A DNA stretch of 64,000 nucleotides from Odiellus spinosus (lineage: Eukaryota > Arthropoda > Arachnida > Opiliones > Phalangiidae). The notes beneath the pieces were generated by a model that made no database searches, was not told where the DNA came from, and saw only the letters and a list, made by a program, of their open reading frames with translations. The stretch's first letter is position 1, and each line of letters opens with the position of its first letter. The translations under genes and the position numbers were made by a program. The DNA is taken from assembly GCA_963920705.1 (NCBI GenBank), contig OY987225.1:1302001-1366000 (forward strand), given 5' to 3'. Positions 1,397-63,812 of this stretch are shown one piece after another.

Positions 1397-1890
1397 CAGA
1401 AGTAGATGAAACCCTCCTTTGAAGTTTATTACTCCCTGGTCTTCTCTACCCCTCTCTGTATGGGTTAGTTTCAAAAAGCGCGATTCGTACGCCTCCTAAT
1501 ACCCTCTTCAGACGAGGCGTAATTCGCCGTGGTTTAATCAGATGTAACCGAGGTTTACATAGCCTTTTCAGTTCAATAAACCTGGGTTAATTTTGAATAA
1601 ACCATGGTTAAATCTGATTAAACCGGCTAGTTACGCCTCGTCTGAAAAGGGTATAACGGTAGATATTTTCGGAGCGGGAGTTCGTCGAGCGAATATCTCT
1701 AGCAGCCTTGGAGTTCGTCCAAAAAACGGCGTCGTTTGTGGAGAGAGAGAATTTCCAATTTTCCGTAGACAGGGGGGATGAAGTAGGACCCCTTCTAACT
1801 CGTAAAATTGGGAATTTTACCCATACAGAGAGGAGCGCTATATGGAACATTAGAGTAGTAGACTTCAAAGGAGGGTTTCATCGGCTTCTG
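1397..1890 (-). mobile_element. Family A MITE, copy 1, with nested insertion
   Basis: Non-autonomous DNA transposon in reverse orientation. It starts CAGAAG and ends CTTCTG, with terminal inverted repeats of about 35 bp and second inverted blocks around GTATGGGT. It is flanked by the 7-bp direct repeat TTATTAT (1390-1396 and 1891-1897). A 154-bp element interrupts it at 1500-1653; without that it is about 340 bp like the other copies. It encodes no protein. Confidence 0.9.
1500..1653. mobile_element. MITE nested in family A, TAA target duplication (family B)
   Basis: Inverted repeat of about 45 bp per arm, from TACCCTCTTCAGACGAGGCG to CGCCTCGTCTGAAAAGGGTA. The uninterrupted family A sequence here reads CCTCCTAACGG, so the insertion duplicated TAA (1497-1499 and 1654-1656). 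A 3-bp TWA duplication is typical of PIF/Harbinger elements; that assignment is inferred from the target site alone. Confidence 0.8.
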
Positions 1891-2030
1891 TTATTATATA
1901 CGAAAAATTCATTTTTAAATTATTTTCTTTTCGTGCAAGAGTCAGTGCTTTGTTTCCAAACTTTTAGCAGTAAGTTGCTAATTTTATTAGGAATATGTTA
2001 CTTCCTTCACAGTGAAATACGTGGGTGAGC

Positions 2031-2952
2031 ATTGCTGCAGGGCTAGTAATGAATCGCGTGTAACTTTATTTATAACGCTTTATGGCGAATATTTAACAGT
2101 ACACGGGTAGCTATTCTGATATATGTCCTTTTTTTCAAGCTTTTGCTTTGGCTTTCCCAAGTGAAGCTTACATTAAAACCATTTAGGTATCGGCTTCTCA
2201 GTCAATTGAAGCCTGTTATGTTAAGGGGCAGCGCACCATTTGGGTACACTCTTTACGCGCCGATCTGTTAAGAGATGTCGCTAACGTAGATCACATTCTG
2301 ATCCTATTCCAATTGGCTAAGCTATGACGAGAGAGACAAAACTAGGCGGTAACTCCTCCCTTCGCGCTTCGAGACTCGTCGCGTTTCCCGTAGCAACGGC
2401 CGTGTAATACGTGGATAAGTACGAGAGCGAGTGAGAGTGAGGCGCGCCATCTATCGTAATAACTCATTATATTCGTACACCAATAGCCGTAGCCCCTGGA
2501 AGTTGGTTTACGAGTATGGAGTTTTCGAATTCGTCAATAGGTAATCATTTACGTCATTTCCCTTTCAAGAGTGATACTCAAAATTTGCCTTAACTGTATT
2601 GAAAATGGTAACCAAATAGTCATCTAAAAATTAACCTTTCGCGCCAATTTATCGAAATAAATTTAATATACGGACGGTTTAGTCACGGAACTGCAATAAT
2701 ATATGTATATTTGGTAGGGTCGCCTAATTCTGAACGCTTCTAATTCTGAACACTTTCATTTAAAATGTATAACTTAATTTTGGTTTGGTCTATTTAAAGA
2801 TGGAAGGGCTCATTTTGTAGATTGAGAATGGGGCTATAGTATCTTGATGTTTCGAGTGCAACCCGCTATATATTAAATTTTTCTGGCAAGGCTTAATAAA
2901 AATTCCTACTCAAATCGTCAGGATTCTCGGTAATCCTTAATGTTAAATATAC
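2031..2952. other. No gene recognised
   Basis: Mixed-composition DNA without a convincing ORF, splice-linked exon or structured repeat. Confidence 0.4.
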
Positions 2953-2960
2953 GTGGCACC

Positions 2961-3377
2961 AGAGGTATATAATAACCCCGTTCGGGGGGAAGTATGAAAG
3001 GTAGGCAAAATCGACGAACAACGAGTGCCCGGCGTAAATCGCGGCGGATCGACACACCGCTTTACTCCCAAAAAATAGTTACACCATTTTGAACCTCACT
3101 AAATTTTCCCTACGCACACTTCCGGAACTCGCGAGCTGTAGTTTACCTTCCACTCCATTTTAACAGACAGCCTGACTCCCGAGACAGGAAATTCTAAACA
3201 CAAATCGAGCCGTCTCGTTTATACAAAGACCATTTACTAGAGTAGCGACATTGAGAAGTCCAGCGCGAGCTAGTGGCCTAGATAGTCAGCAGCGGGCTCT
3301 TGTTGTTCGTGATTTTTAGCATTGGTAGTATAGGGGCTTTCATACTTCCCCCCGAAGGGGGTTATTATATACCTCTG
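2961..3377. mobile_element. 420-bp inverted-repeat element (family C)
   Basis: Arms read AGAGGTATATAATAACCCC at left and GGGGTTATTATATACCTCT (with one more G in the run) at right. The inverted similarity continues inward about 80 bp (GTATGAAAG, then CGAACAACGAG against CTTGTTGTTCG). The 8-bp direct repeat GTGGCACC flanks it (2953-2960 and 3378-3385). No coding capacity; superfamily not assigned. Confidence 0.8.
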
Positions 3378-3635
3378 GTGGCACCGAGGAAATAGATTTT
3401 TTCCCCTCAATTTTTCACTCGAAAATAAAGGAATTAATATATTTTATATAAAAAATAACACAGTTAACCTAATACGAGCATAGTAACCAAATTACAAAAA
3501 TAGTCATTTTTGTAACCAAATTACAAGAATAATAACTTATAGTGGAAATAGTAACTTATAGTATCAGTCCTGCCCTAATTGGACAAACTTATAACAAATG
3601 ATTCGTTACCTATGCTCGAATGGAAGAGCTAATAT

Positions 3636-3973
3636 CAGAAGCCGATGAAACCCTCCTTTGAAGTCTACTACTCCAATGTTCCATATAGCGCTCCTCTCTG
3701 TATGGGTAAAATTCACAATTTTTCGAGTTAGAAGGGGTCCTACTTCATCCCCCCCTGTCTACGGAAAATTGGAAATTCTCTCTCTCCACAAACGACGACG
3801 TTTTTTGGACGAACTCCGAGGCTGCTAGAGATATTCGCTCGACGAGCTCCCGCTCCGAAAACATCTACCGTTAGGAGGCGTACGAATCGCGCTTTTTGAA
3901 ACTAACCCATACAGAGAGGGGTAGACAAGACCCGGGAGTAATAGACTTCAAAGGAGGGTCTCATCGGCTTCTG
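3636..3973 (+). mobile_element. Family A MITE, copy 2
   Basis: 338-bp copy with CAGAAGCCGATGAAACCC at left and its reverse complement at right. The 7-bp duplication CTAATAT is perfect (3629-3635 and 3974-3980). Confidence 0.92.
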
Positions 3974-4028
3974 CTAATATAGATCAAAAATAGAGACAGC
4001 TCACTAGGAGTCCATTTTAATGATTTTT

Positions 4029-4240
4029 AGTAATCATGTTTTTTCAGATTCAAATTCCCCGACTTTTAAAGGTTTTCCCTGAATTTTTCCATCGATTTTC
4101 CCTGACCGTTTTAATACTACACAATTTGCCAAACCTTTTGCACTGACACGGTTAGCTTCAAATGTTTCTGCAGATAATTATTGTAATTTCTTGGCTTCTT
4201 GAAATATCTTAAAATTCCCTGACTTTATATAGGGCTCATT
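4029..4240 (+). repeat. Family E repeat fragment
   Basis: Repeated TTCCCTGAC phrases with TTTTTTCAGATTCAAATTCC. Ends not resolved. Confidence 0.55.
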
Positions 4241-4438: not shown

Positions 4439-5316
4439 GGGATGCCACAGTGTGTTTTTTCAGATTCAAATTCCCTGACTTTTCGCGGTTTTCCCTGACC
4501 TTTTCCAACGCTTTTCCCTGACCGTTTTAGCTAATACTACCCAATTTTTAACCTTTTATTTATTATATAATTGCGTTAGCCAAACCTTTGCACTGACACG
4601 GTCACCTTCAAATCTTTTCTGTTGATGATTGTAATTTCCTGGCTTCTTGAAAGATCTTTGAATTCCCTGACTTTTCCCTGAGTTTCTTGGTTCATATTCA
4701 AATTCCCTGACTTTCTCTAACCAGTGGCCACCCTGGTAATACAGGGAGTTTCGAAAATGGTGGTAGGACTGAGCTACGACATTTTGTCGTACGGGGCGCC
4801 ATTTAAGAGTTACGAAATGAATCATGTACGGATGACCCCTTAACGTATATATTAATAAAGGCAGAATATGAGAAACAATTTGAAGCTTTAGGGAATTATT
4901 TTAAGTTTATAATAATTACGTTACAACTGATTGGTAAACCGATCATAAACAGTTCCTTGACACGTACCAAAATATTTATTTCCTCTGACCATTTGGGCTT
5001 TTCGGGCTATTTTCAAATTCCCTGACTTTTCCCTGACCTTTGGGGCCACTTTCCAAATTCCCAGGTCGTGTCAGGGACGGAAATAAGAAAATTTTCTTAT
5101 TGGAAAAATGTCCAGTAACCCCCCTTAAAAATTCAAAAGTTATCGGACAGTTAACAAAATTACATTTCCTGTATTAAAAAGTACTTTTTTTATCGGACAT
5201 TTGTCCAGTGACCCCCTCTTAAAAATAAAAAGTTATCGGACATTTGAAAAATTTATCGGACAATGACCAGTGACTTGTGCTTATTTCCGTCCCTGGGTCG
5301 TGTACGAACCCTGATT
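4439..5316 (+). mobile_element. Family E element with nested family D
   Basis: Begins near AGGGATGCCACAG and ends CGTGTACGAACCCTG, so termini resemble CAGGG...CCCTG. The interior is dense in CCCTGAC phrases. A family D element sits inside at 5072-5295. Termini resemble hAT-type non-autonomous elements, but no clean target duplication was found. Confidence 0.55.
5072..5295 (+). mobile_element. hAT-like MITE (family D), copy 1
   Basis: 224-bp element with inverted ends CAGGGACGGAAATAAG and CTTATTTCCGTCCCTG. It is flanked by a perfect 8-bp repeat GGTCGTGT (5064-5071 and 5296-5303). CAGGG ends plus an 8-bp duplication fit the hAT superfamily. It interrupts a family E element and is therefore younger than it. 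Confidence 0.9.
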
Positions 5317-7215: not shown

Positions 7216-8537
7216 ATTATATCAAAAATGTCTTTGCGAACAAAGACCCAGAAGGACATGTTATGGCCTTGAATGTCTGAAGTGACAGATATTTAATTTT
7301 CTTTTAAAACATTAAATTTAAATACAATTAAATTTTCTTTTAAAACATTAAATTTAAATACAATTAAATTTTCTTTTAAAACATGAAATTTAAATATAAT
7401 TAGATTTTCTTTTAAAACGAAATTTAAATATAATCACAATCTGGCACGATTTAGAGTTTCAAATTTCAAAACAACTGATTTTATTCACTCGGAAATATTT
7501 AAGAAAAAACATAACAGACGATTTTCTCCCATTGACGCTTAACATTAAATTTCGCTTAATTATTTTTCAGGGTAAACGTGTATTGAACTGTTATTTTTCA
7601 GTATAACGCGAGTCCACTTTTTGTTTTCTTAATTTAACTCGAATTTCCACGACTCGCGATTGAACGGATCGTTAAAAATACTCGCCGGTTTATTGGAATG
7701 GGTATATGATAAAGGGAAATGTGTTTTTTAAAGCCCGTTTAAAGTCACCTTCTTTTCTAACTTAGCAGACGACGCAAACCATAACAATTTGTACTTTCAA
7801 AGCTATATTGCGCGCGCGAGGGAAGAGAACTTCAAAGCGACGAATTTTAGAGCGGGTAAGGTTTTTAAATAAATTGTAATACTTTCGTTTTTCTTTTCAT
7901 TAAAACCGTACAATTTAAATGATGATTTCCATAAGGGACCACTAATTAGTTATTAGGAGTTATAATAAAACATTATCCATTAAATATGGGGAATTTTTAT
8001 TCCCTTTAAATTACTTGTATAAGCATTCATAAGCTAACATGAACGAATTGCCTCGACTAAAGTCGAGGAGTTATAATAAAACATTATCCATAGAAAACAT
8101 TATCCAATTAAGGTATGAGATCAGATCATAGAACTTTGATTCTACGCCTAAAGCCAAAGCTAAATTAAGTAAATTTTTCTATCGAACGAAAAGTTTCGTT
8201 TTGTTTGACACGTAATCCCTGAAAAATAATTAAGCGAAATTTAATGTTAAGCGTCAATGGGAGAAAATCGTCTGTTATGTTTTTTCTTAAATATTTCCGA
8301 GTGAATAAAATCAGTTGTTTTGAAATTTGAAACTCTAAATCGTGCCAGATTGTGATTATATTTAAATTTCGTTTTAAAAGAAAATCTAATTATATTTAAA
8401 TTTCATGTTTTAAAAGAAAATTTAATTGTATTTAAATTTAATGTTTTAAAAGAAAATTAAATATCTGTCACTTCAGACATTCAAGGCCATAACATGTCCT
8501 TCTGGGTCTTTGTTCGCAAAGACATTTTTGATATAAT
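7216..8537. repeat. Long inverted repeat, arms about 350 bp
   Basis: The left arm (7216 to about 7580) and right arm (about 8208-8537) are nearly identical reverse complements around a spacer of about 630 bp. The length difference comes from an internal 36-bp tandem unit (TTTTCTTTTAAAACATTAAA core): about four copies on the left, three on the right. A TTAA-type short element lies in the spacer near 7711-7864. It could be a foldback transposon or a recently inverted duplication. Confidence 0.88.
7711..7864 (+). mobile_element. TTAA-type MITE (family H), copy 1
   Basis: Shares AAAGTC...CTTTTCTAACTTAGCA and GCGCGCG...GGGAAG blocks with the copy at 41371-41526. The right side abuts TTAA (7865-7868). 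The left end is decayed. Confidence 0.55.
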
Positions 8538-8606
8538 ATCTGTCACTTCAGTCTAACACGAAAGTGTTAACTTCTATATTAAAAGACTAGCCCTTTAAAA
8601 AGTGAT

Positions 8607-10130
8607 TCAGTCAAATCTCTACATTTTTAACGTTGCCCTTTAAACCCAATTAAAATAAAAAATTTCATTATTTTTGATTTTAATAGCTGGGGCAGCCGCA
8701 CTTGATTCAGTCGGATCTCTACATTTTTACCATTGTTCTTTAAAACCAATTAAAATTAATTTTTTCATAATTTTTGATGTTAATAGCTGCGGCAGCTGCA
8801 CTTGATTTAGTCAAATTTCTTCATTTTTATCATTGCCCTTTAAACCCAGTTAAAATTAATTTTTTCATAATTTTTGATGTTAATAGCTGCGGCAGCCTCA
8901 CTTGATTCAGTCAGATCTCTACATTTTTATCATTGCCCTTTAAACCGAATTAAAATTAATTTTTTCATAATTTTTGATTTTAATAGCTGGGGCAGCCGCA
9001 CTTGATTCAGTCGGATCTCTACATTTTTACCATTGCCCTTAAAACCCAATTAAAATAAAAAAAATTTCATAATTTTTGATGTTAATAGCTGGGGCAGCCG
9101 CACTTGATTCCAGTCAAATTTCTACATTTTTACCAGTGCCCTTTAATCCCAATTAAAATTAATTTTTTCATAATTTTTGATGTTAATAGCTGCGGCAGCT
9201 GCACTTGATTCCAGTCAAATCTCTACATTTTTACCAGTGCCCTTTAATCCCAATTAAAATTTATTTTTTCATAATTTTTAATGTTAATACCTCTGGCAGC
9301 CGCACTTGATTCCAGTCAAATCTCTACATTTTTACCAGTGCCCTTTAATCCCAATTAAAATTAATTTTTTCATAATTTTTGATGTTAATAGCTGCGGCAG
9401 CCACACTTGATTCAGTCAAATCTCTACATTTTTACCAGTGCCCTTTAATCCCAATTAAAATTAATTTTTTCATAATTTTTTATGTTAATACCTCCGGCAG
9501 CCGCACTTGATTCCAGTCAAATCTCTACATTTTTACCAGTGCCCTTTAATCCCAATTAAAATTAATTTTTTCATAATTTTAGATGTTAATACCTCCGACA
9601 GCCGCACTTGATTCCAGTCAAATCTCTACATTTTTACCAGTGCCCTTTAATCCCAATTAAAATTAATTTTTTTCATAATTTTTGATGTTAATAGCTGGGG
9701 CAGCCGCACTTGATTCCAGTCAAATTTCTACATTTTTACCAGTGCCCTTTAATCCCAATTAAAATTAATTTTTTCATAATTTTTGATGTTAATACCTCCG
9801 GCAACCGCACTTGATTCCAGTCAAATCTCTACATTTTTACCAGTGCCCTTTAATCCCAATTAAAATTAATTTTTTCATAATTTTTGATGTTAATAGCTGC
9901 GGCAGCCGCACTTGATTCCAGTCAAATCTCTACATTTTTACCAGTGCCCTTTAATCCCAATTAAAATAAATTTTTTCATAATTTTTGATGTTAATAGCTG
10001 CGGCAGCTGCACTTGATTCAGTCAAATCTCTACATTTTTACCAGTGCCCTTTAATCCCAATTAAAATTTATTTTTTCATCATTTTTTGATGTTAATACCT
10101 CCGACAGCCGCAGCGAAATCTTCATATTTT
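8607..10130 (+). repeat. 100-bp satellite array
   Basis: About 15 head-to-tail units of 97-101 bp. Each contains CAAATCTCTACATTTTTACC, CCCTTTAATCCCAATTAAAA and TTAATAGCTGCGGCAGCCGC or close variants. Early units (8607-9000) are more diverged than those from 9100 to 10000, the usual result of homogenisation in the centre of an array. No ORF runs through it. Confidence 0.95.
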
Positions 10131-12904: not shown

Positions 12905-13620
12905 CAGATATCTTACAACGCTACGGTGTATATACGCATATTTGGGGAAAAATGACTACTAGAGATCAGTGGCGCCATCCGCGAGACCAGTGGCGCCATC
13001 CGTGAGACCAGTGGCGCCATCCGTGAGACCAGTGACGCCATCCGTGTGACACGGGCCCATAATCGGTGGGAAGACACAGAATTCCATATCAAGGTTCTAA
13101 CACATTGATGACGTCAATTATTCGCGAAGCTGCCAGCGCCATCTACCAAAATGGCTAATCGGTCACAAATACGTGTTTTTCAAGATTTAAAAGATTTCAA
13201 ATTCGCGCATTTTTCAAATACGCGGAACACGTCATATTTTAGCAAATTAGATTAATTTGCACGTGATTTCTAGTACCCCCAACCAAGAAGGATCAGATAA
13301 GGAGAGGAAAAGTGGGAACGGCGCGGCTCCTACTGCGTCGGCCTAAACTCCCACTCTGGGAGAACGGGGGTAGAGATGCTTCGTGGTAAATTGTTGTCAC
13401 GTGGGTAAAACGGATCCTTTATGAGACGCGCTAGCTAGCGACCACGTGACAACAGTTTACCTCGAGAATTTCCTATCCCCCCTTTCCACCCGAGTGGGAG
13501 GTTGGCTCTTCTCTCTCTAACTCAACGCAGCCCCACTTTTCCTCTCCTTATCTGATCCTTCTTGCCCCAACTCAGAGATGGCGCTCTCTCTCTATAGCGC
13601 AGCGTTGTATTATCTCTTAT
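12905..13620 (+). mobile_element. Family I element, copy 1, interrupted by family J
   Basis: Related to sequences at 33285-34028 and 43125-43522; shared blocks include TGGCGCCATCC, GAAAGACACAGAATTCC and GAGATGGCGCT. The ends pair as CTTACAACGCT against GCGCAGCGTTGTA. A 21-bp unit containing CAGTGGCGCCATCCGTGAG is repeated about four times at 12968-13047. A family J element sits inside at 13284-13564. Confidence 0.7.
13284..13564 (+). mobile_element. Family J MITE, copy 1
   Basis: 281-bp element with inverted ends CAAGAAGGATCAGATAAGG and its complement. It is flanked by a perfect 7-bp repeat CCCCAAC (13277-13283 and 13565-13571). It has a conserved core around CACGTGGGTAAAACGGATCC and GCTAGCTAGCG. 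It does not encode a protein. Confidence 0.92.
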
Positions 13621-23317: not shown

Positions 23318-26300
23318 TAATATTTTGGTTTTCCAAACTTGTTAACTCCTATTTTGTATTTAATTCGGAATAGCAAAATCTGACCATTGTAAAACGTTAA
23401 TATATCAGTTTATCAATTATTAATCTCTTCCGACGCGAGGGTTTAATTAATTTCAGCCACGTTTGGCTTATTTAAGCCAAATTAATCCTCGTTGAATACC
23501 CGAGATTAGTGAATAATTAGTAGCTCGCTATATTTGGTCAGACTTCCATCGTCTCGTAATAAGCGATCACGTATGGCGCCAGTCAAATATATCAGGAGTG
23601 CGAAACAATTTACGCCTTTGTAACTTTGTTTGGCGTTCATTCAGAATCATTATATTCGACAGTGTCGAAATATTTGCATCGGACTACTTTCTTCTACGAG
23701 ATTTGAAACATCGAGTATCAATCCGCCTCAGCTTTATGGATACGAAGTTACCGATAAGTTGGCACGAACTCCTTTAATTTCGGTGAAATTTAACATTTAG
23801 TGTAAGTCCGATGTATAATTGGCAATATGGCGAACATCTCTCGGTTTATAATATATATAAATCGCTATATTACAATCCGAATAGTGTTTAATAAGCGTAA
23901 TAAAGTATAAGGCGGGGCTTCGACGCTCAATTAATACATATACATTTACACGTAATATGTTTGTTTACCGCGCACCAGAGAATTTGCCCATTTCTCTTCC
24001 TATTAAATACTCTGCCATCAGGTAGATGGCACTAACCACGTAATCTTCTCCGAGCGTGAGAAAACAACGAATTTACCGTCATGATATTCGTGCGCAATTA
24101 ATAAAATCACAAGTAAATCATCCCCAAGTCTACAAGACGACATACTACGGGTTACAATGATGAAGGTCCGATTTCCTCAGTCAATGATTCCACCCTAAGT
24201 ATTCCAAATTTCTACAGAAGAGCGGTATGCGCGGCCCAGTATTGCTGGTAGAGTAAATCAAACTTGAACTCGCGACGCCCCGGCGAGGGCCTCTTTCGTT
24301 TCGCGAGAGAGAGGGGAAAGCCGAGTTTCTTAGTGACATTTCCTACCCCCCTTAACGATTCTACAGACGACGCGCGAACTCGCGAACGAACTTCAACGAA
24401 GGCAAAATAATTAGCACCGCCTACTTAGTTCCTATCTTAACCGCTAGAGAGGGCAATTTCGACTTCCGTTTCTCGGCCGTTTTACAATTTTGAGATTTTT
24501 CCTCTCTCCCCGCGCGAAAGTTGTGACGACACAACTCTCAGACCTTCAGTTCATTCGTTATATGCCCGGTTCTAGACCTTGAAGCATGATTTACCTGTGA
24601 TAAAATCTATTTCACTCGGTAATTAAATTGGTTTTATAAGAATTGCTCGCTGTTTTGATCTTAATTTCGAATAACGATTAATGAAAAATTTAAACTCTGT
24701 AATTACTTACTAAAATAAAATGTCCGATTAGAATTGTCTGACTTTAAAGTCGTCAATGACTTATCCCGATATCCTGTTGCGCTCTGAAATTTAAGTCTAA
24801 TAAATTGTTATTACTATTAGACGTCCATTCCCAAGGTTGGATGAAGGACGAATACCTCGTATTTGGTTATTTAAGTCGGTCATTCTCAAGGTTGGATCTG
24901 GTACGAACTTCGAATATTACAGAAAATATCACATCTCTAGAAATTATCCGCTATTTCCCTAAAGAGTGGCCCCCAATTCCCTAAATAGCGGCCACTATTA
25001 TTAAAACAGCAGATTTGAACTTCGGCGCTGTTTAGTGAACTACTATTATGGCGTACACACGGCAGAACTTTTTTTGGGGTCGAAGTTCTTTTCCAGCTAA
25101 TCTAAACCGTCTCGTTGCAGGGCACTCGGGGCAGAGCTGGGAAAATGTCTTCGTCGCGCGTGTCGCGTTGGTGAGATATCGTAAAACAGTCTAACGACGG
25201 GTGGGGTTTCGAACGATAGGCCACTAACTCCCTTACTTCGACCTTGACTGTTGTCGCCCACTCACTGAATATTTTATTTACCTATTCAGGGCTTCGTCTC
25301 TGCTGGGAATTTTCGAATCCATCTATGAGGTCCTATAAATCATTTTTTAGTGGTTTCAGACGCGTGAAAAATGCACCAGCCAGAAGGTTTTAGGTGTACA
25401 GCATTAAACATAAGCCTTGGCTCCTAATAATTCGTGTTGGACTGTTTTGTACCTACATTTTCTCGCGTATTTATAGATGTGCTAAAATCCTGGCCTTGAA
25501 ATGAACAATTCCCTTCAATTCATTCGGTCTAATGGAACGCCAAGTTTATTGGTGTTTATTTCGGAGTCGGGACACACTTCCGCAAAAGCGAGCGCGTTGT
25601 AAATTAATTCTAAAACAAAGGAGGAGGTTGTAAGGTGAAAGGCGTCGTAATGAATCGCTGTACTGATAGCGGGCTCAACAGGCAAATGGCCCTTAGGGTA
25701 TCCCTCCTCCATCCATCCCTCGATGGTACGTGTTTACTACTCCTTATCTTCCGAGCTACAAAGTCTAATGTTTGCCACAATCAATATACAATACAATCTA
25801 GCACGCTTCGCTCCTCCAATATGGCCCATCAACCCGCGTGTGTACGTAGTCCGTATTACCTTAATGATAAAGTAAGGTAACTGCCCTAATTTACGTTAAT
25901 CGCTTTGGCATCAGGCACGTTGGATCGAAATCAAATTCGGCAGAATGGGATTTTGGCTGTCCCACTCGACAGAATTCACATTACATTATCATGGGGTATT
26001 TTTTTGAAAAATAGAAAATGTAGTTCGTTTTTCTAAAATCGATGGCGCACCTATCTAACAAGGCCCTTGTTTTTTTTTCTCAAATGTTTTGTTCGCACTA
26101 CTAACATTATTTTCCAGCTGGTCAATGTAAGCCAGTTTGGGTAGGGTCTACTTTTGAAAGTGAGGGTAGAAGGATAAAATCAGAGCTCACAGGCATATTC
26201 CATTTTTTTATTTCAATGACCTGGAACTCTGCAGGGGATTGAAAACGGCTGGGGATTATTTCGGTTTTTTTTTTTTTTTATTTTCATTTGTTGCTCCAGT

Positions 26301-27798: not shown

Positions 27799-28136
27799 CA
27801 GAAGCCGATGAAACCCTCCTTTGAAGTCTACTACTCTAATGTTGCATATAGCGCTCCTCTCTGTATGGGTAAAATTCACAATTTTACGAGATCGGTGGGG
27901 TCCTACTTCATACCCCCCTGTCTACGGAAAATTGGAAATTCTCTCTCTCCACATACGACGACGTTTGGTTGACGAACTCCAAGGCTGCTAGAGATATTCG
28001 CTGGTCGAACTCCCGCTCCGAAAATATCTACCGTTAGGAGGCGTACGAATCGCCATTTTTGAGACTAACCCATACAGAGAGGGGTAGACAAGACCCGGGA
28101 GTAATAGACTTCAAAGGAGGGTTTCATCGGCTTCTG
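27799..28136 (+). mobile_element. Family A MITE, copy 4
   Basis: 338 bp with canonical ends and a perfect 7-bp duplication ATATCAT (27792-27798 and 28137-28143). Confidence 0.93.
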
Positions 28137-28905: not shown

Positions 28906-29197
28906 CAAGAAGGATCAGATAAGGAGAGGAAAAGTGGGGACGGCGCGGTTCCTACTGCGTCGGCCTAAACTTCCACTCTGGGAGAACGGGGGTAGAGACG
29001 TTTCGTGGTAAAATGTTGTCACGTGGGTAAAACGGATCCTTTATCAGCTTCGTAGTAGCCAACGACGCTAGTGACCTCGTGACAACAGTTTACCTCGAGA
29101 ATTTCCTATCCCCCCTTTCCACCCGAGTGGGAGGTTGGCTCTTCTCTCTCTAACTCAACGCAGCCCCACTTTTCCTCTCCTTATCTGATCCTTCTTG
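28906..29197 (+). mobile_element. Family J MITE, copy 2
   Basis: 292 bp, nearly identical to the copy at 13284 except in the central 30 bp. Flanks TTGAAGC and GTGAAGC form a 7-bp duplication with one mismatch. Confidence 0.9.
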
Positions 29198-29441: not shown

Positions 29442-29753
29442 CATGGATTAATCAACCTCACAGAGATAATTCACTCTGGTAAAATGATTGTTCGAATCGC
29501 ACCCTGGTGAGAAAAATGGTCTCTACACCGGAAGATTCTAGCTACCGATACACGGGGTGAAATTTTGAAGGGGAAAAACACTCTAAAGCAGACGATGCTC
29601 TCATGGATTACTTCCGGATTTGTATCGGTAAGATGGTAAAATTGAGGGGCTGGATAAAATGTCTGGCAGCCATGTTTGAAACAAACATCTTCAACTACTA
29701 GTATAGCAAATCGTACCAGAGTCAATTATCCCTGTGAGGTTGATTAATCCATG
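29442..29753. mobile_element. Family O MITE
   Basis: 312 bp with ends CATGGATTAATCAACCTCAC and GTGAGGTTGATTAATCCATG. The inverted similarity continues inward (CTCTGGTA / TACCAGAG). Flanks TATAGTC and TGTACTC match at five of seven positions, suggesting an old 7-bp duplication. An 84-codon minus-strand ORF inside has no recognisable function. Confidence 0.82.
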
Positions 29754-31869: not shown

Positions 31870-32185
31870 CAAGAATTCATTCAGGTTCCATAAGAATATG
31901 GGAGGGCCGCGATTCAATAACCATCCTCCCAAACTTTGTAGCAAAAGTTCGTCCGCTTCGAATCGATTTTTCAAGTAAATCGCTCCTGACATCTATTATT
32001 AACCCGCGCCACTAACGACCTTGACATAATATTTTGGGTAAAAAAAATGGAGCCGACAGAAAAAAGATCTAAGCGTACAGATGTTGCGAAAATTGCGGAC
32101 GAACTTTTGTTACAAAGTTTGGGAGGATGGTACCAGAGGCTAAAGCTATGCTCTTATATTCTTATGGAACCTGAATGGATTCTTG
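31870..32185. mobile_element. Family U MITE
   Basis: 316 bp with ends CAAGAATTCATTCAGGTTCC and GGAACCTGAATGGATTCTTG (one mismatch). A perfect 7-bp repeat ATTTTAG flanks it (31863-31869 and 32186-32192). Both arms, read outward, carry a short coding-like stretch (ADELLLQSLGGW). The right one follows an ATG at 32048 (MEPTEKRSKRTD). This may be a remnant of a transposase or captured host sequence. Confidence 0.88.
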
Positions 32186-32674: not shown

Positions 32675-33011
32675 CAGAAGCCGATGAAACCCTCCTTTGA
32701 AGTCTACTACTCTAATGTTCGAAATAGCGCTCCTCTCTGTATGGGTAAAATTCACAATTTTACTAGATCAGAGGGGTCCTATTTCATCCCCCCTGTCTAC
32801 GGAAAATTGGAAATTCTCTCTCTCCACAAACGACGACGTTTGGTTGACGAACTCCGAGGTTGCTAGAGATATTCGCTGGACGAACTCCCGCTCCGAAAAT
32901 ATCTACCGTTAGGAGGCGTACGAATAGCGATTTTTGAAACTAACCCATGCAGAGAGGGGTAGACAAGACCCGGGAGTAATAGACTTCGAAGGAGGGTTTC
33001 ATCGGCTTCTG
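32675..33011 (+). mobile_element. Family A MITE, copy 5
   Basis: 337 bp with a perfect 7-bp duplication TCTTCGA (32668-32674 and 33012-33018). Confidence 0.93.
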
Positions 33012-33284: not shown

Positions 33285-34028
33285 GACTTCAGAAATTAGA
33301 GATATTACAACGCTGCGCTATGTCAGAAGCCGATGAAACCCTCCTTTGAAGTCTTTTACTCCCGGGTCTTGTCTACCCCTCTCTGTACGGGTTAGTTTCA
33401 AAAAGCGCGATTCGTACGCCTTCTAACGGGAGATATTTTCGGAGCGGGAGTTCGTCGAGCGAATATCTCTAGCAGCCTCGGAGTTCGTCAAAAAAACGTC
33501 GTCGTTTGTGGAGAGAGAGAATTTCCAATTTTCCGTAGACAGGGGGGATGAAGTAGGACCCCTCCGATCTCGTAAAATTGTGAATTTTACCCATACAGAG
33601 AGGAGCGCTATATGGAACATTAGAGTAGTAGACTTCAAAGGAGGGTTTCATCGACTTCTGGCTATATATAGATACGTTTCTTTTGGGGAAACGTGACTTC
33701 TAGAGACGGGTGTCGCCATCCGCGAGACACGGATATAATCGGGTGAAAGACACAGACTAATATAGCGCCATCTACCGAAATTAGTAATTGGTCATAAATA
33801 CAATTTTTCAAGGTACAAGTTTCAAATACGCACCTTTTTCAAATACGCGCGGAACACGTCATAATTTAACAAATTATATCAATTTGCATATTTTTAGAAA
33901 TCAAATACGCACGCGTCACGCGCTTGGCCACCAGTTTCGAGGTGGGGTGGAAATGAGGAAGATACTGTCAAGCCAGGACTTGGAGATGGCGCTAGAATCA
34001 ACCCGCGGTTTGTTGACGACATAGAAGG
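33285..34028 (+). mobile_element. Family I element, copy 2, interrupted by family A
   Basis: Left part 33285-33323 (AGAGATATTACAACGCTGCG) and right part 33661-34028 (GACTTCTAGAGACGGGTG to GGTTTGTTGACGACAT) match the copy at 43125-43522. A family A element splits it. Confidence 0.7.
33324..33660 (-). mobile_element. Family A MITE, copy 6
   Basis: 337 bp in reverse orientation. Flanks GCTATGT and GCTATAT form a 7-bp duplication with one mismatch. It is nested in a family I element. Confidence 0.92.
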
Positions 34029-39247: not shown

Positions 39248-39736
39248 AAGTGGATATTTTTTGTTCAAGGCACACCTGATTGGCTATTAGATACGCTTGT
39301 TAGGGAAACCTTTTACCGTTTGCATTCCACGGGTGTAAAATGCATCGCCTTCGTACGCGATGGACTCGCATCTAACATTGCTATGTCTCACCGACTCGGA
39401 GTTGTTACGAATGACAAAAATCAGTTTTTACCAACCCTGGTAAAAACATTAACGGTAATGTGTTTATACCCTTATACTGTATATATCTTCCTGAATAACC
39501 AACGCAACAAAAATTTCGCCTTCATTTTGGAGGTTTGCCATATGTTGGCGAGTGCTTGTAATATGCCGGTTGATCAGCGAACTGGCAAAGTACATTTAGG
39601 CCTAAAACTCGACATCCTTAATTCTAGAAATCCTCATTCCAAAGACTACAAGGCGCTTATAAATAATAATAACATTACTGTTAAACGTGCGAGCCTGAAC
39701 AAAGCTACGGAATCCATATTGAACTCAACCAGGGTT
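39248..39736 (+). pseudogene. P-element/THAP-type transposase fragment
   Basis: One open frame of about 160 codons, beginning after a stop at 39245-39247. It resembles the RNase H-like part of P-element and THAP9 transposases. A helix with TLVRETFYRLHSTGVKC is followed by the strand AFVRDGLASN, with the Asp-Gly of the catalytic site, then IAMSHRLGV. Later NFAFILEVCHMLASACN fits the family's (F)ILDxCHMLKLxRN segment, though the Lys and Arg are not in the usual places. The N-terminal THAP zinc finger and the C-terminal part are missing, and the frame runs straight into a family E repeat at about 39734. It is a remnant, or one exon of a more complete copy. Assignment rests on motif resemblance only. 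Confidence 0.45.
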
Positions 39737-40151
39737 AGTACAAAATTTTGGAAGTTAATTTCCCTGACTTTTCCAGGTTTTCCCTGACCATTTCCAAATA
39801 ATTTCCCTCGCCATTTTTTTTTTTTTTTTTTTTTTTTTCATGAACATATTCTTACGAGCGAACTTCTGGCAATTCCCACATTTTATTTGAGATAGTTTGT
39901 CAATCGGGGTCAGCTGATAGTTTACTCAGAATATGAGAAACAATTTGAATCTTTAGGCAAATATTTTCAGTTTATAATAATTACGTTACAACTGATTGAT
40001 AAACCAATCATTAACAGTTCCTTGACATATACCAAAATAGTTATTTTCTCTGACCATTTGAGCTATTTCCAAATTCCCTGACTTTTCCCTGACCTTTGGG
40101 GCCACTTTCCAAATTCCCTGACTTTTCCAGGTTTTCCAGGTCGTGTACGAA
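39734..40151 (+). mobile_element. Family E element, copy at 39.7 kb
   Basis: Begins CAGGGTTAGTACAAAATTTT and ends near CAGGTCGTGTACGAAC. The interior is full of TTCCCTGACTTTTCC phrases and a poly-T run at 39817-39838. It gives the unfilled form of the sequence interrupted at 47.1-48.0 kb. Confidence 0.65.
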
Positions 40152-40159
40152 CATTTGCG

Positions 40160-41365
40160 AATCTGTTAATAAAACTGGTCCACTTCAATTTGTTATTTCT
40201 ATTACTTGCATTTTATACTTGGAGCAGTTATGTAAAGCCTGATGGTCACCTAAAGTATTTAAGATCTGTAAATTTGCAAGGCGGGCCTGGAAGATAAAAA
40301 CCAAACAACAGTTTCCACAACTACAGCCTTACATCGAATGGATTGATACGCTTACGAGATGAGGGAGGACTAATTTATCCATCTAAGATCATTATAACAA
40401 TCCTCCAAATCACTGAAAAAGTTTCAATCTTTAATATCATGGTACCAAAAATATGAGACTAACGTTAAAAATCGACTCTCTTGTCAGAAGGTGCCTCATC
40501 TCACGTTTACGCGACTTTAAGGATGAGGGAAATCGCGAAAAACGTTAACTAGAGCTCGGAATCGGATCGATCCATTATCTTCCGTTATTCCTATACTTTC
40601 AGATATGTAACTAAAAAATTAAATTAGTATATTCGTATAATTGTTAAATGTATAAGATTTATCCGAAGATAAGCGTTTGAAAAATATTTCAAATTTACTT
40701 TTAATTTGAAGAATATAAATAAAACAACGAAACTAAAATTTTACAGTGTCAACACTCCCAACTCGACCGATTTCTCAAAATTCACTTTTACACCGACTGT
40801 GACCGCTAGAGTGTCACGAATATTGATTGTGAAAGTCACTTGTATTTGTAATTCCGCTATTAAAACTATGACACGAATAGATTCCTAATTTAAATTAATA
40901 AAGCCGCGTTCACACTAAACACTTTGAAAGCTTTTTTAAACGGTAAGATTAGATCAGTGGTTCTCGAACTTATTTCGCCTACCGCCGACTTTCAGAATAA
41001 AAATTGTTGTAGTGCCCACCAATTTTTTTTAACTCACTTTCTTCTGAAGTAAATTAAGGAAATTATTACTTAACAAATATTGCAAGCTCAAATCTTTAAT
41101 TATTTCTAAGAAAATATATCGTCGAAATTATAATTTATTTTAATTATTAATCAAATGAAAATCTTTGGAATAATGAACTAAAACTACCAACTACAATTAA
41201 AAAGGCGAAATTGTGATTTCTCTGATAATTTTAAATTTCTGTCAGTTTTGAGGGTTTGACCCCAACGAGGCACTTGTCATTTTTTTAATGGTAGCCTCCA
41301 TTTGTACAATAATCATATTTTCTCGGGTAAGATTGAACGACGTATAAATAGGTCGGCAGGCTGGG
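40160..41365. other. No gene recognised
   Basis: AT-rich, no supported gene. AAGCCGCGTTCACACTA at 40901-40917 resembles the end of the repeat at 43517. Confidence 0.4.
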
Positions 41366-41984: not shown

Positions 41985-42320
41985 CAGAAGCCGATGAAAC
42001 ACTCCTTTGAAGTCTACTACTCTAATGTTCCATATAGCGCTCCTCTCTGTATGGGTAAAATTCCCAATTTTACGAGATCGGAGGGGACCTACTTCATACC
42101 CCCTGTCTACACAAAATTGGAAGTTCTCTCTCTCCACAAACGACGACGTTTTTTAACGAACTCCAAGGTTGCTAGAGATATTCGCTCGACGAACTCCCGC
42201 TCCGAAAATATCTACCGTTAGGAGGCGTACGAATCGCGATTTTTGAGACTAACCCATACGGAGAGGGGTAGACAAGACCCGGGAGTAATAGACTTCAAAG
42301 GAGGGTTTCATCGGCTTCTG
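41985..42320 (+). mobile_element. Family A MITE, copy 7
   Basis: 336 bp. Flanks ATATTAA and ATATTAC make a 7-bp duplication with one mismatch. Confidence 0.92.
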
Positions 42321-50434: not shown

Positions 50435-50764
50435 CATGGATGTATAAAGAACTAACGTTCATGGATATTGCACTCCGAGAAAAACGCGTGAACAGAATGC
50501 GCCATGTTCACTGGCGCCCTCTAGTAACGATGTTTCTCGTTAGACAGGAAGTGTACCATTGCGTCACATTTGAAATTGAAAAACTGCAGAACGTGCAGAC
50601 GACAATTTGTAAACAGGAAATCCGTTTCGCAAAAATTTCCCAAAAAGAGCCCCACTTCCGCCGTCGCTAGCGGACGATATTATCCGAACTCGCGATCTAC
50701 TGAAAATGCCTTACAGAAGGTACGAGTGCAATATCCATGAACGTTAGTTCTTTATACATCCATG
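50435..50764. mobile_element. Family K MITE, copy 1
   Basis: 330 bp with ends CATGGATGTATAAAGAACTA and its complement. Inverted arms of about 50 bp continue through ACGTTCATGGATATTGCACTC. The flanking 7-mers no longer match. A 76-codon ORF inside recurs in copy 2 but is not recognised. Confidence 0.9.
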
Positions 50765-51094
50765 TTCGAATTCACAAAATAGGTTGATACTGATAGGTGA
50801 CTTCAAAAGTTCAAATCCTCTTTACTGGTCGTTGTTTTAATTTCCCCCTAAGTCAGTTAAGAAAAATCTTACTAAAAGTACATCCGGGTCAGGTGTGGTT
50901 GATTGAAGTTTATCATTCGCGTAATAATTTGTTATTTTCGATAAGTGCGCATATCTTAATAGAAAGTTCGAATTTAATTTTGAATGAACTCTGATTCCTT
51001 TTAGTTTCGACAATATTACACCATCCATTAGCTACCACGGTTCCGGGTGAGGTTTGGGGAACTTCGCTCCAGCATGGATGTATAAAGAACTAAC

Positions 51095-51917
51095 CATCGA
51101 CAAACTACTACCAGGACTAGTAATGTAAGCTTATAAAACTTCGTCTCAAAACGCCGCGCTAAAACCCCTCTAGCGACATTGATTGGAGTTAAAAATTTAG
51201 TACAAGATGGCGGCGTCCATGGAATTGGAGATCAGGATATTGAAAGGTAAAATAGTATTGAATTTACAATATTATTTTATTTAAAGTAAGTTTGACCTTA
51301 ATATCTTCAGTATTTATGCGCGTGTTAAACCAACGTTGAATAAGGTTCGCGAAATATATTCTTCGCCGAGGCAGGGGTCGAAATCATCGCCCGTTTTAGA
51401 TCGTAAAGACGAAAACCGTTAGTAAGCCTAGGCTTATTCCGTTCCGCCTAAGGCTGGCCGCTGCGGCGTCGCCCGTCACCACGAAAAACGACGGCTAAGA
51501 GAGAGGAGAGAGCGTCACCGCTCTCCGTAGTCGTTGATCGCCGGCCGATAGGCTTACGCGGAACGGAATAAGCACGAGCTTTTTAACGCGGAAGGCCCGT
51601 TCCCCCGTAAAAGTCTTGAAGGTCTTCGCGAGCGAAGTGAAATTTGGTGATACAATGGTTTTAATTCGACAAAAAAGTATTAAGAAAGCCGCGGAAGGCA
51701 ACTGAAAAATTATATAAAAGGAAAGAAAAACCGGATTTATCTTAAAATTAATTAAAAAATAATAAATACGAAAGCGAGGCTTATCTCCATTGGGAATACG
51801 GTATAGCAGTAGAAGAGTATCTTGTACTACATATATGACTCCATTCGATAACGCACGGTGGCGCTCTCATCAATAACCGCGGCACTTAAGACAAGTCCTG
51901 GTAGTAGTTTGTCGATG
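51095..51917. mobile_element. 823-bp element nested in family K (family L)
   Basis: Inverted ends CATCGACAAACTACTACCAG and CTGGTAGTAGTTTGTCGATG, with a perfect 7-bp duplication AACTAAC (51088-51094 and 51918-51924). Inside are gene-like pieces on +. One is AAGATGGCGGCG opening a short frame (MAASMELEIRILKG) followed by GTAAAAT. Another is an open stretch at about 51311-51420 (IYARVKPTLNKVREIY). A third ends in TGA near 51704 (GDTMVLIRQKSIKK). Their phases do not all join, so no gene is called. It may have captured host exons. Confidence 0.88.
51432..51573. repeat. Inverted repeat inside family L
   Basis: GCTTATTCCGTTCCGC (51432-51447) pairs with GCGGAACGGAATAAGC (51558-51573). GC-rich between. 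Possibly a further nested element. Confidence 0.7.
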
Positions 51918-52500
51918 AACTAACGTTCATGGATATTGCACTCCGAGAAAAACGCGTGAACAGAATGCGCCATGTTCACTGGCGCCATCTAGTAACGATG
52001 TTTGTCGTTAGACAGGAAGTGTACCATTACGTCACATTTGAAATTGAAAAACTGCAGAACGTGCAGACGACAATTTGTAAACAGGAAATCCGTTTCGCAA
52101 AAATTTCCCAAAAAGATCCCCACTTCCGCCGTCGCTAGCGGACGATATTATCCGCACTCGCCATCTACTGAAAATGCCTTACAGAAGGTACGAGTGCAAT
52201 ATCCATGAACGTAAGTTCTTTATACATCCATGGCTCCAGTAAAGGGTAGAAATTATGGCGCGCGTTAGCGTCAGAAGGAAAATAACCGATTAAAAAATTA
52301 CTAGTTCCAGCTTGGAGACGTTCTGTAGTTTATTTTGATGTTTTTTGAAAACGAGAAAAGAAAAAGAGTCGAACTTTGTATCGTAAAATCACTAAACTAA
52401 TCTTAAAAAAAGTAAAAATCCCACCTCATTGACGTTTTGTGACAATGTAGTCTGCTGCAAAACACATGAGCGAAGTTAGCGAACAGTTCTTATATATTAT

Positions 52501-52781
52501 CAAGGAGGATCAGAGAAGGAGAGGAAATGTGGGGACGGCGCGGTTCCTACTGCGTCGGCCTAAACTCCCACTCTGGGAGAACGGGGGTAGAGACGTTTCG
52601 TGGTAAAATGTTGTCGCGTGGGTAAAACGAATCCTTTATGAGACGCGCTAGCTAGCGACCACGTGACAACAGTTTACCTCGAGAATTTCCTATCCCCCCT
52701 TTCCACCCGAGTGGGAGGTTGGCTCTTCTCTCTCTAACTCAACGCAGCCCCACATTTCCTCTCCTTCTCTGATCTTCCTTG
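52501..52781 (+). mobile_element. Family J MITE, copy 3
   Basis: 281 bp, starting CAAGGAGGATCAGAGAAGG (slightly changed from copies 1 and 2). Perfect 7-bp duplication ATATTAT (52494-52500 and 52782-52788). Confidence 0.92.
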
Positions 52782-53671: not shown

Positions 53672-56600
53672 ATGCTAAAAGCTGTCATTTTAATTGGAGG
53701 ACCATTGAAAGGTTATTAATAGATATTTATATCGGTCTAGTAGTTAAACTCTAACTTTACAGAATTCCAACCAATTTAATTCAATCTTTAGGCACTCGCT
53801 TCAGACCACTTTCCTTCGATGTACCTAAAGCTCTATTTCCCGTGGCGGGTGCGCCCATGGTCCAACACTTGATAGAAACGTGTTGCAAAGTGTCAAATTT
53901 GAAAGAGATACTTATGATCGGCTTCCAACAAGCTGATGACGCGCTTACGAAATTTATATCGGCAATGACTAAAGAGTACAGCATAAGCATTAGGTTTGTA
54001 CGTATTTACACGTGTTCGGAGATCTCTATATTATTTTGGGACATGCAATTGGCCAAATGATAGCTATATGTTAGACAAACGCCACTCTTGACAAGTATGG
54101 TAACGACAAACTGACTGAAACGTATGATTGTTTCTATTAATGTCAAGAGTGGCGTACATTGAACAGGAAAAATGCCATTATAATTACATTCATAATTTAA
54201 ATATCATTGCACTTTACCAATCTTTCATCAAAACCAAATTGTAAATAAATTTAAACAGGTATTTGCAAGAATACGCGTCATTGGGAACCGCCGGAGGTAT
54301 TTACCATTTCAGAGACCTGATTAGGAGTGGAAATCCAGAAGCTTTCTTTTTAATCAACGGAGATGTTTGCGGCGACTTTCCTTTGTCAGAAATGCTGGAA
54401 TTCTCCAGGAAATTGGGAAATCAGAAGCTAGTTACTGTTCTAGGCACGGAGGTCCGTTCCCATTATTGTAGATATGATAAAAGTAACAAAATTTCGCCAC
54501 GAATCTTATTTTAACCGTTTCCTTTCATAGGCAACGAGGCAACAATCTCTAAACTATGGATGTATTGTTGAGAATAAAGAAACACACGAGGTATGTTTTA
54601 CAAATTGGGTTAAGGAATTTGGAAATTGGCCCAAAATGTTAGGGGAAAGTCACGGAATTTGAAAAATGCCCCAAAAGGTCAGGGAAATCGGGGAATTTTA
54701 AAAGAAACCCAATGGTCAGAGAAATTAAATATTTTGGCTCGATGAAAAACGATAAAAATTGGTCAGGGAAATCATTTAGAAATGGTCAGGAAAAAACTTC
54801 CAACATCTTGTATCTAAGCAAAGACAAAGCAAATTAGATCAGGTTAAGTAGCACTCATTTTTATCGCAGGGTTGCCACAGACCTGGAAAACCTGGAAAAG
54901 TTATGGAATTTCAAAATTGGTCTAAAAATTTTAGTCCGGGAATTTTAAAATTGTCCAAAGGTCAGGGAAAAGTCAGGGAATTATCCAAAAATAAAATTGT
55001 GGAATCTTGAAGTATGGATTTAATTAGACCAGGAAAGCTTCCATAAATATGTGTAAAAATTTATTATATGGGATCAGAGCCTTGAAAACATTTATGGAAA
55101 GTCCCTATTGAGAAAAGCACGTTTTTTATGAATACTTTCTCACAGTAGACTGTCTAACAGAACACATATTTTTGGGGAGAGGTGATTCGCGCAAGGAAGA
55201 GATCCCACGCCAATCTCTAGCAACCTTGGAGTTTTAAACCTTTAAATTGGTCAGGGAAAAACGGTGGTGATGGTCAGGGAAAATCTGGTAAAGGCAGGGA
55301 ATTTTGTTACGAAAAATCTGTGGCAACCCTGTTCTTGGGATTTTAGCTCTTTCACAACTTAATTTATAATTTTTAGCCCCCCCTAAAACAGTTAAAAAAA
55401 TTTTAAACCATGTACCAGCAAAAGCCCGCCTCCCCAGAAATAAAAAGAGTCGACAACCCTGTGCAAATGCAAAAGGGTTAACTTAAAAGGCCCTATCTGC
55501 TCTGAAACGTGCCCCTTTAAAATGCTCTTCCCTTACGCACACAGCTTAGCTTTGACTGTACAATTTGTTTTGTACAACGTCATCTGCTTTAAAGGGGATT
55601 TGAAAATCGCAGATAGTCCCTTTAATGGGGTGATTTCAATTTGATTATGAATGCATGATTTCATATCATAATAATTACATGTAGAATGGCCATTTTTTAC
55701 CTTGAAGTAATTTCATGTATATTAAAAGATTTCCCAATTTAAGTAACGTATTTTGGAATTATGGTTTTATGTTCATACATTCAAAAAATTGTTTAATAGA
55801 CTGTAATTACCTAGAAGTTTTGCGGGAAACGCGAAAGAAAAAAGGTAGTTTTTGAATTGGTTTTGCAAAAACCACTGGTTATTTTAAGTTTCATTGAATT
55901 TGGTGATTGATTTGTGATGACAGTCAACACACTTCAATTCATTTCAATTAGATTTTATTGAATTTGCTTAAAAGGAAAATGCAACATAACGAGTTATTTT
56001 TTATCGAATAAAACTACGCCCGCCATAGATGGCGCCACTGAAAGTAAATTTTGAAAATATAGAAACATGGATTAATTATACGCGCCTAAGGATAGACAGC
56101 AGAGGAACATTTCTTTTAAAAAAAAAAAGCTAAACCAGTCGGCCCGGGGGTTTGGGCTTCAGCCTCCTTGTTACTCCCCTTTTTAGTGGATCAAACTTCT
56201 ACGACGGACGGCTTCGAGCGAGAGAGAAAAGGGGGTGTCGCCCCATGACTGAATACAAAGACTTTTTTATCAGTAAATAAAATGTAGCCTTCCCTAAGTT
56301 CGAGAGAAGTTTGCAAAATGAGAAAAGCTGCGGCCGGTTGATGAACAATGTTTAAACGCGAAGAGTCCGGTAATTTCCACTTGATGAAAAGTACGTCCAT
56401 TATCTAGAATTCGAGTGAAATTCCAGGAATTTACGAGGAAGCTAGGGTTCGGTCCTTCTACATTCATTTTGATCTAGCAAACATAGGCCCTAAAACCGGT
56501 TTACCAGTTGCGGCCGATAGGTTGGATTAGGGCTGAACAATTTTGAACTTTATCTGCCTGCTGTCTATCCTTAGGCACGTATAATTAATCCATGATAGAA

Positions 56601-59216: not shown

Positions 59217-59284
59217 TATATATATATACATCTTCATACTGTAATATTTGAAGCAAATGTTTTGCACTTTTTATGATATTATAC

Positions 59285-62460: not shown

Positions 62461-62623
62461 TTAATAGTTCCGGATTTGTCATAACCATAGGCCTCAAAAT
62501 AAAAGTAATGTTTCACTAAAACTAAAATACCATTCGAATTAAAGTACCAAGTTCCGGGCTCCTACCACCCGTAAGACCAAAATGATTTAAGTTATAACAC
62601 ATTCTCTCGAAAGATGTTCATTT

Positions 62624-62629
62624 TTTATT
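62624..62629 (-). promoter_or_regulatory. RpS3 polyadenylation signal
   Basis: AATAAA on the minus strand, eight bases after the RpS3 stop codon, implying a very short 3' UTR as is common for ribosomal protein genes. Confidence 0.75.
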
Positions 62630-62637
62630 GGTTAGAT

Positions 62638-62825
62638 TTATTGAACAAGGGGTGGAGCGACCTTGGGAACGGCCTTTTCTCCCTTTGCCTCGCTGTACGG
62701 AGCCAATGGTTGTTCTTCTTCCTTGGGTTCAATGATATTCACGTTATCGGGAAGCGGTTTCTTTGGTCCAGTCTTGCCATTAGGGTCAAATGGCAACATG
62801 ATTTTCACCTTAATACCCAGCACAC
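62638..62825 (-). CDS. RpS3: 40S ribosomal protein S3, last exon (partial gene)
   Basis: Terminal exon of uS3, which sits at the mRNA entry of the small ribosomal subunit. The frame begins within the Gly of [18 protein letters not shown] and continues [19 protein letters not shown], the signature that follows the KH and C-terminal domains of animal S3. It ends in a lineage-variable Pro/Lys-rich tail (KVAPPLVQ) and TAA at 62640-62638. The acceptor on the minus strand is TTTTTGCAG just before GTGTGC (phase 1). The upstream intron fills the rest of the window and holds a family A copy, ATAGGAAA repeats and a family F arm. The other exons lie beyond 64000. Confidence 0.95.
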
Positions 62826-62904
62826 CTGCAAAAATGTTCAACAATACACTTTGAATACGTGTACTAAATACTGAAAATCATTTAAACAAATTTTTTATCC
62901 AAGC

Positions 62905-63049
62905 AGGGTGACTACAACTAAAAATCATAGGAAAATAGGCATTTTTTGAATCGAATTATAGGAAATATAACAAAATATAGAATTACTACTGAAATTCAGG
63001 GGACAGTATAGAACTATTACTGAAATTAAGAGGGTAATATAACGATTAC
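62905..63049 (+). repeat. ATAGGAAA-rich repeat interrupted by family A
   Basis: Begins GCAGGGTGACTACAAC, then AT-rich ATAGGAAA words. It resumes at 63388-63440 after the family A insertion. Lies in the RpS3 intron. Confidence 0.5.
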
Positions 63050-63387
63050 CAGAAGCCGATGAAACCCTCCTTTGAAGTCTACTACTCTGATGTTCCATAC
63101 AGCGCTCCTCTCTGTATGGGTAAAATTCACAATTTTACTAGATCGGAGGGGTCCTACTTCATACCCCCCTGTCTACGGAAAATTGGAAATTCTCTCTCTC
63201 CACAAACGACCACGTTTTTTTGACGAACTCCAAGGCTGCTAGAGATATTAGCTCGACGAACTCCCGCTCCGAAACTATCTACCGTTAGGAGGCGTACGAA
63301 TCGCGCTTTTCGAAACTAACCCATACAGAGAGGGGTAGACAAGACCCGGGAGAAATAGACTTCAAAGGAGGGTTTCATCGGCTTCTG
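63050..63387 (+). mobile_element. Family A MITE, copy 8
   Basis: 338 bp with a perfect 7-bp duplication CGATTAC (63043-63049 and 63388-63394). In the RpS3 intron. Confidence 0.93.
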
Positions 63388-63812
63388 CGATTACTGAAAT
63401 CATAGGATGCAAATTACTGGGATTGTAGGACGAGAATTGTTACTGAAATTTCAAAATTAATAGTGAAATAGTTGGTATAATAAAATAACCTTGGAAGCAG
63501 CCAAAAGCCGTTAAAAAGTACCAACTTCTATGGAAGATTTTGCCTTTTTCAAGGTTGGGTCGAAGTATAGGATAATCTATACTTTTTCCAACCTTGAAAC
63601 TAACAAAAAGATGCTCAGTTAAATAGAAAATATTTCTACGGAACATGGCGCCTTTTTTCAAGGTTGGGATGAAGTTTTATAATACCAACTATTGTAAGAG
63701 CATTTACTACGCAAATTGTAAGAACATTATTACCCAAATTGTAAGAGAATTACTACCGCAACGGGTTAATTACAAGGCAAGGGTAATATAATATTTAGAA
63801 AATATCCTTTGA

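Follow-up and report, generated by a model that had tools for sequence, protein, structure and literature searches.

The ends of the canonical P element start with CA, and 1360 of Drosophila is a member of the P superfamily with a 7-bp target-site duplication. The canonical P element of Drosophila and the P-like element of zebrafish make 8-bp duplications, and their transposases contain RNase H-like and GTP-binding domains and, in some, a THAP domain, as stated in the accessible part of the report (PMC7776569). In Galileo, another Drosophila member of the superfamily, the duplication is 7 bp in most copies and 8 bp in three, with the palindromic target consensus GTATTAC, and the same text discusses 1360 beside the P element as having low target specificity (PMC4168063, accessible part). 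Galileo is described as having long, internally repetitive terminal repeats, and copies that lack matching flanks are reported and have been read as chimeric (PMC3573991, accessible part). In Anopheles gambiae, ten families of P-derived miniature inverted-repeat transposable elements (MITEs) have been tied to six of nine P subfamilies, with which they share 114-198 bp, both ends summed, around an unrelated interior, and they show 8-bp duplications and copy numbers of 5-310 (Quesneville et al. 2006, PMC1562414, accessible part). Here we describe ten families of short elements with CA...TG ends and 7-bp duplications in a 64,000-nucleotide stretch of the genome of the harvestman Odiellus spinosus (contig OY987225.1, positions 1,302,001 to 1,366,000; hereafter the window).

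Because three of these families have ends that match coding P elements, and the 7-bp duplications and the palindromic target preference are common to the MITEs and the coding P elements, we consider it very likely that all ten families are non-coding MITEs of the P superfamily, residing in a genome rich in divergent P families. A mechanical scan of the window for inverted ends flanked by identical k-mers yielded 14 inverted-repeat elements that start with CA, end with TG and carry exact 7-bp flanking duplications, and a mismatch-tolerant check added five imperfect copies, four with flanks matching at 6/7 and one at 5/7. The copies are as follows (window coordinates; C1 is the contig to which the window belongs; strand., i.e. 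none assigned, throughout):

1397..1890, family A MITE, duplication TTATTAT
2960..3377, MITE-like element of an extra, previously unlisted family, ends CAGAGGTATATAAT, duplication GTGGCAC
3636..3973, family A MITE, duplication CTAATAT
13284..13564, family J MITE, duplication CCCCAAC; both ends match a transposase-bearing element in locus L045
23003..23310, family A MITE, duplication CTAGAAG
24108..24599, MITE-like element of a second unlisted family, ends CACARGTAAATCAT, duplication ATAAAAT
27799..28136, family A MITE, duplication ATATCAT
28906..29197, family J MITE, duplication 6/7, TTGAAGC/GTGAAGC
29442..29753, family O MITE, duplication 5/7, TATAGTC/TGTACTC
31870..32185, family U MITE, duplication ATTTTAG
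32675..33011, family A MITE, duplication TCTTCGA
33324..33660, family A MITE, duplication 6/7, GCTATGT/GCTATAT
41985..42320, family A MITE, duplication 6/7, ATATTAA/ATATTAC
50435..50764, family K copy without duplication; the K site as it is without L
51073..52232, family K MITE, duplication GCTCCAG, interrupted by L; coding relative C1:8060284-8065552
51095..51917, family L MITE inserted in K, duplication AACTAAC; coding relative C7:2293077-2297685
52501..52781, family J MITE, duplication ATATTAT
56066..56594, family X MITE, duplication ATAGAAA
60633..60979, family N MITE, duplication 6/7, GTCACGT/GTTACGT
63050..63387, family A MITE, duplication CGATTAC

The L element lies within K with AACTAAC on either side, and the K copy at 50435 presents the same site with a single AACTAAC. 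A second, damaged N-like copy was seen by eye at 58616-58926. Comparison of two A copies revealed that the one at 1397 contains a nested short inverted-repeat insertion at about 1500-1653 with a TAA duplication, which is PIF/Harbinger-like from its 3-bp duplication and was set aside as a separate insertion.

These pairs of ends and duplications are hardly expected by chance. With 16-base ends and up to three mismatches, 14 of 407 CA pairs in the window had an exact 7-bp duplication, whereas the other 15 start dinucleotides combined gave three, all TT and all within 7298-8455, and 20 Markov-1 simulated sequences gave no pair with an exact 7-bp duplication. A looser scan with 12-base ends returned 19 matches at 7 bp, i.e. 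the 14 CA elements and five others. Many matches of the duplication scans stem from a long palindrome with AT-rich internal repeats at 7297-8456. The first-pass annotation, which had proposed CA...TG families with 7-bp duplications from the letters of the window, thus described a real pattern, down to the single mismatch in N (6/7 at 60633) and the 5/7 match in O (29442); its list of families A, J, K, L, N, O, U and X holds but is slightly short, because 2960-3377 and 24108-24599 represent two more families.

To what kind of transposase these ends belong is indicated by the coding elements of the same genome. A profile search of the 443-Mb genome with PF21787 (TNP-like RNase H, which covers the RNase H-like portion of P-type transposases) yielded at least 150 matches, all above the cut-off among the 150 scored of 386 candidates, and no match in 14 control genomes. 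For ten of the matches, about 4 kb of flanking sequence was read in either direction, and in five of these ten 8-kb loci perfect inverted ends and an exact 7-bp duplication enclose the transposase match:

L039, ends CATAGACTAAG, duplication GTCTGTC
L040, ends CGTTGCCTACG, duplication GTTTATA
L042, ends CGGTGCCTCCG, duplication TTTGAAG
L044, ends CATAGACAATA, duplication ATAGAGC
L048, ends CACTACCTCCT, duplication ATCCGAC

Together with the coding partners of K and L (see below) these form a set of seven transposase-bearing elements with exact 7-bp duplications. A scan for ends in 3.4-kb loci gave nothing useful, and these loci are uninformative on ends because their flanks are too short. PF21787 and PF21788 are both above cut-off in L039, L042, L045 and the L partner (L028), and in L048 they lie on separate open frames, two frames in all, whereas for L040, L044 and the K partner the domain evidence consists of the PF21787 search. 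A THAP domain is above cut-off in L039 and L042 and below it in L048, and the frames read in L045 and L028 showed none. Moreover, phmmer aligned L039 (5e-19) and L045 (8e-8) with the Drosophila P transposase 6p5a. The window itself contains the remains of such a gene:

39248..40493, strand +, pieces of a decayed P-superfamily transposase gene, PF21787 24.9 bits with a cut-off of 24.6 (translated window search)

This gene is interrupted by other sequence, shares 83% identity over 52 residues with the transposase at C1:8067565, and no ends or duplication were found around it.

Three of the MITE families can be traced to coding relatives. For J, the ends of the transposase-bearing element in L045 match the first J copy with 89% identity along 133 bases at one end and 85% along 130 bases at the other. 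The relative of L, C7:2293077-2297685, ends like L and is flanked on either side by GTTAAAC; it aligns with L at 88% identity along 182 terminal bases, and the transposase inside it contains PF21787 and PF21788. For K, opposite K ends, each flanked by ATTCAAC, delimit C1:8060284-8065552, which was read at its two ends and encloses a PF21787 match at 8062696-8063121. The K end in locus L049, at first seen as unrelated to a transposase, is the right end of this K partner. J, K and L have both ends in common with a P element of the same genome and contain no transposase of their own, which is what defines a P-derived MITE, and elements with the same ends around a transposase match, of the kind that had been suggested as a search target, do exist for these three families. 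Additionally, two K ends stand back to back in a 40-base element (L068 1044-1083) with the exact 7-bp duplication CTTGAGC, which is perhaps near the smallest element that K ends can form. A comparison of the MITEs with the P reading frames of L009-L048 gave no match; longer U variants (L089-L092, 707-884 bp), tried as a bridge to a U partner, likewise gave no match to the P reading frames of the loci.

In a sample of 46 copies, i.e. the 19 in the window plus 20 U and seven A copies from elsewhere in the genome, mean flank identity is 0.879 at 7 bp and 0.24-0.35 at 4, 5, 6, 8, 9 and 10 bp, so that the tabulation of lengths proposed at the outset gives a peak at 7 bp only. A further 145,650 bases, from loci that were fetched around P matches and are thus non-random, were scanned with low-complexity words dropped. 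They contained ten exact 7-bp cases, eight starting with CA and two with CG; five of the ten are coding P elements and five are shorter elements, including one J copy.

The duplicated target sequences point in the same direction. A palindromic preference for T at position 2 and A at position 6 is found in A (22/30), U (28/42), the other families pooled (13/20) and the P elements (12/16), the last set comprising eight targets, those of the seven transposase-bearing elements and of the 40-base K element. A and U match the coding P elements in both duplication length and target motif. Galileo resembles the elements described here in its 7-bp duplications and in the T and A at the second and sixth positions of its target, and is set apart by its long, internally repetitive repeats, the likeness being one of reported features. 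The canonical P element and its zebrafish relative share the RNase H-like and GTP-binding domains, with THAP in some, but differ by their 8-bp duplications. Compared with the 8-bp P-derived MITEs of Anopheles, the elements described here have 7-bp duplications, and the U family alone accounts for about 2900 end matches on each strand. Among the titles and abstract beginnings listed, with subscription literature mostly outside the search, we recognised no description of 7-bp P-derived MITEs outside Drosophila.

The abundance of U can be estimated. Its first 30 bases, with up to three mismatches, have 2903 forward and 2909 reverse matches in the genome and none for a reversed control, which suggests up to about 2900 copies, as each complete copy yields one forward and one reverse match. 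For A, a first look with one copy as the query brought up 4688 candidates, 40 of which were scored.

Based on these data the mechanism may be pictured as follows. A P transposase, with its RNase H-like catalytic domain, a GTP-binding insert and in some cases a THAP domain, would bind the terminal repeats of a MITE, excise it and join its two ends to the target at positions 7 bp apart on the two strands, and repair of the gaps would then generate the 7-bp duplication. Each P family would serve those MITE families whose ends match its own.

Several observations weigh against a P origin of all ten families. The ten 8-kb loci, a further 30 of about 3.4 kb and 39 upstream windows yielded no coding partner of A, U, N, O, X, 2960-3377 or 24108-24599, and A and X copies in sampled loci sit outside or beside the transposase element. 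Four of the ten 8-kb loci (L041, L043, L046, L047) have no convincing ends within 4 kb, and the J partner copy in L045 lacks matching flanks and hence a duplication; one way to read this copy is as a chimera, as for Galileo. An N-like stretch (N bases 9-300, 89%; L049 988-1259) adjoins the K partner, and its start lies 2.0 kb upstream of the P match C1:8067565, which is the distance of true left ends from a transposase match, but other repeats cut into it and it comes to an end within other sequence; it is a lead, not a link, and could be either the left portion of a partner of N or simply a broken MITE. N was not used as the empty site of the K partner since what adjoins that partner on its left is not an end of N. 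Furthermore, exact 7-bp duplications occur in only 21 of the 46 copies, with an exact match at 6 bp in one copy and at 4 bp in another. Among the 20 U copies from outside the window, six are exact at 7 bp, 11 match at 5-6/7, two at 4/7 and one fits 6 bp better, and among eight A copies, including the window copy at 1397, two are exact, five match at 6/7 and one at 5/7. Copies beyond the window were sampled from A and U, and within a family the ends share ancestry, whereas the insertion sites are separate events. Finally, the excess of T and A at positions 2 and 6 (63/92) over positions 8-10 outside the duplication (114/276; P = 5e-6) is measured against a background that is partly biased itself, at its outermost positions, in an AT-rich genome.

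These points leave some room for the view that J, K and L alone are P-derived and that the other CA...TG families owe their movement to a different and perhaps undescribed superfamily with 7-bp duplications of its own. The seven families for which no coding partner was seen speak for it, but we judge it improbable, given that A and U show both the palindromic preference of the coding P elements and the 7-bp spectrum, and given that the transposase-enclosing elements with exact 7-bp duplications in the sampled loci are all P elements, though these loci were picked for P. Its most specific form, in which A, U and their relatives were moved by a non-P, undescribed 7-bp transposase whose palindromic target preference is of the P type by coincidence, appears slightly less probable still. 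For A, U, N, O, X, 2960-3377 and 24108-24599 we infer membership among the P MITEs from signature and target motif.

That a single P transposase lineage mobilises all families, as the first-pass annotation had it, is very unlikely. The duplication length and target motif common to A, U, the pooled families and the P elements would fit such a lineage, but the J and L transposases are only 35% identical in their RNase H part, K has a third element, and the terminal repeats differ from family to family. A sample of 35 transposase domains was drawn from the 8-kb loci and the best matches, leaving out that of the K partner; grouping at 60% identity gives 19 clusters, between which the median identity is 27%, and the elements with exact 7-bp duplications span six of these 19 clusters, plus the K partner, which is outside the tree. 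The pairing of each family with a different autonomous element, named beforehand as the outcome that would speak against one lineage, is what K, L and J show, though within one superfamily. The accompanying pointer to the P superfamily proved right, the ends of J, K and L being those of elements that enclose P-type transposase matches, and the undescribed group offered beside it is not needed, as Galileo has been reported with 7-bp duplications (PMC4168063, accessible part). The features then ascribed to P elements require some adjustment: a duplication of about 8 bp applies to the canonical element but not to Galileo with its 7 bp, and CA-starting ends apply to five of the seven coding P elements but are not universal, because two of the seven start with CG. 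Taken together, the MITE families are best read as being served by several divergent P families, not by one transposase or an undescribed superfamily.

That the elements are hAT or Mutator MITEs whose 8-9 bp duplications were mistaken for 7 bp through decay or boundary error is scarcely credible: a CAGGGACGG-ended element with an 8-bp duplication does lie nearby (5072-5295), but flank identity in the 46 copies is 24% at 8 bp and 33% at 9 bp versus 88% at 7 bp with no exact 8- or 9-bp case, i.e. the 8-bp duplication expected of hAT is absent from the CA...TG copies, and the same kind of scan does recover 8-bp duplications of other elements.

In the window, seven CA pairs had an exact 8-bp duplication, six of them within 7298-8455 and the seventh being the element at 5072-5295, and the 145,650 bases of other loci contained nine 8-bp duplications, three of them starting with CA. 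The element at 5072-5295, with the duplication GGTCGTGT, is hAT-like from its 8-bp duplication, and a similar element was seen by eye near 12013-12241. Another element, at 22145-22731, has the ends CGAGGGGTCGGA, the 8-bp duplication CGTTAGTC and, as judged by eye, an interior of repeated GATTTA-type units.

The window also contains two tRNA-Gly (CCC) genes 1.4 kb apart (37593-37663 and 38994-39064) and, at 53791-58201, the exons of a nucleotidyl transferase gene with PF00483 above cut-off in one stretch and GMPPB_C below it in another, which perhaps encodes a GDP-mannose pyrophosphorylase. Element X sits between exons of this gene. Tandem arrays, delimited by eye and from scan spacings, occupy 8580-10100 (units of about 100 bp) and 30420-31230 (units of about 16 bp, CATTTGCGCAGTTTTC).

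With J, K and L traced to coding relatives, the families of the window add a new and large case to a kind of mobile DNA that is already known. For annotation this calls for caution, since P-derived MITEs such as these would be missed by an 8-bp filter. One genome holds several divergent P families with 7-bp instead of 8-bp duplications, which seem to have fed thousands of MITE copies, and together with the 8-bp P elements of Drosophila and Anopheles they form a natural series on what in the transposase sets the spacing of strand transfer.

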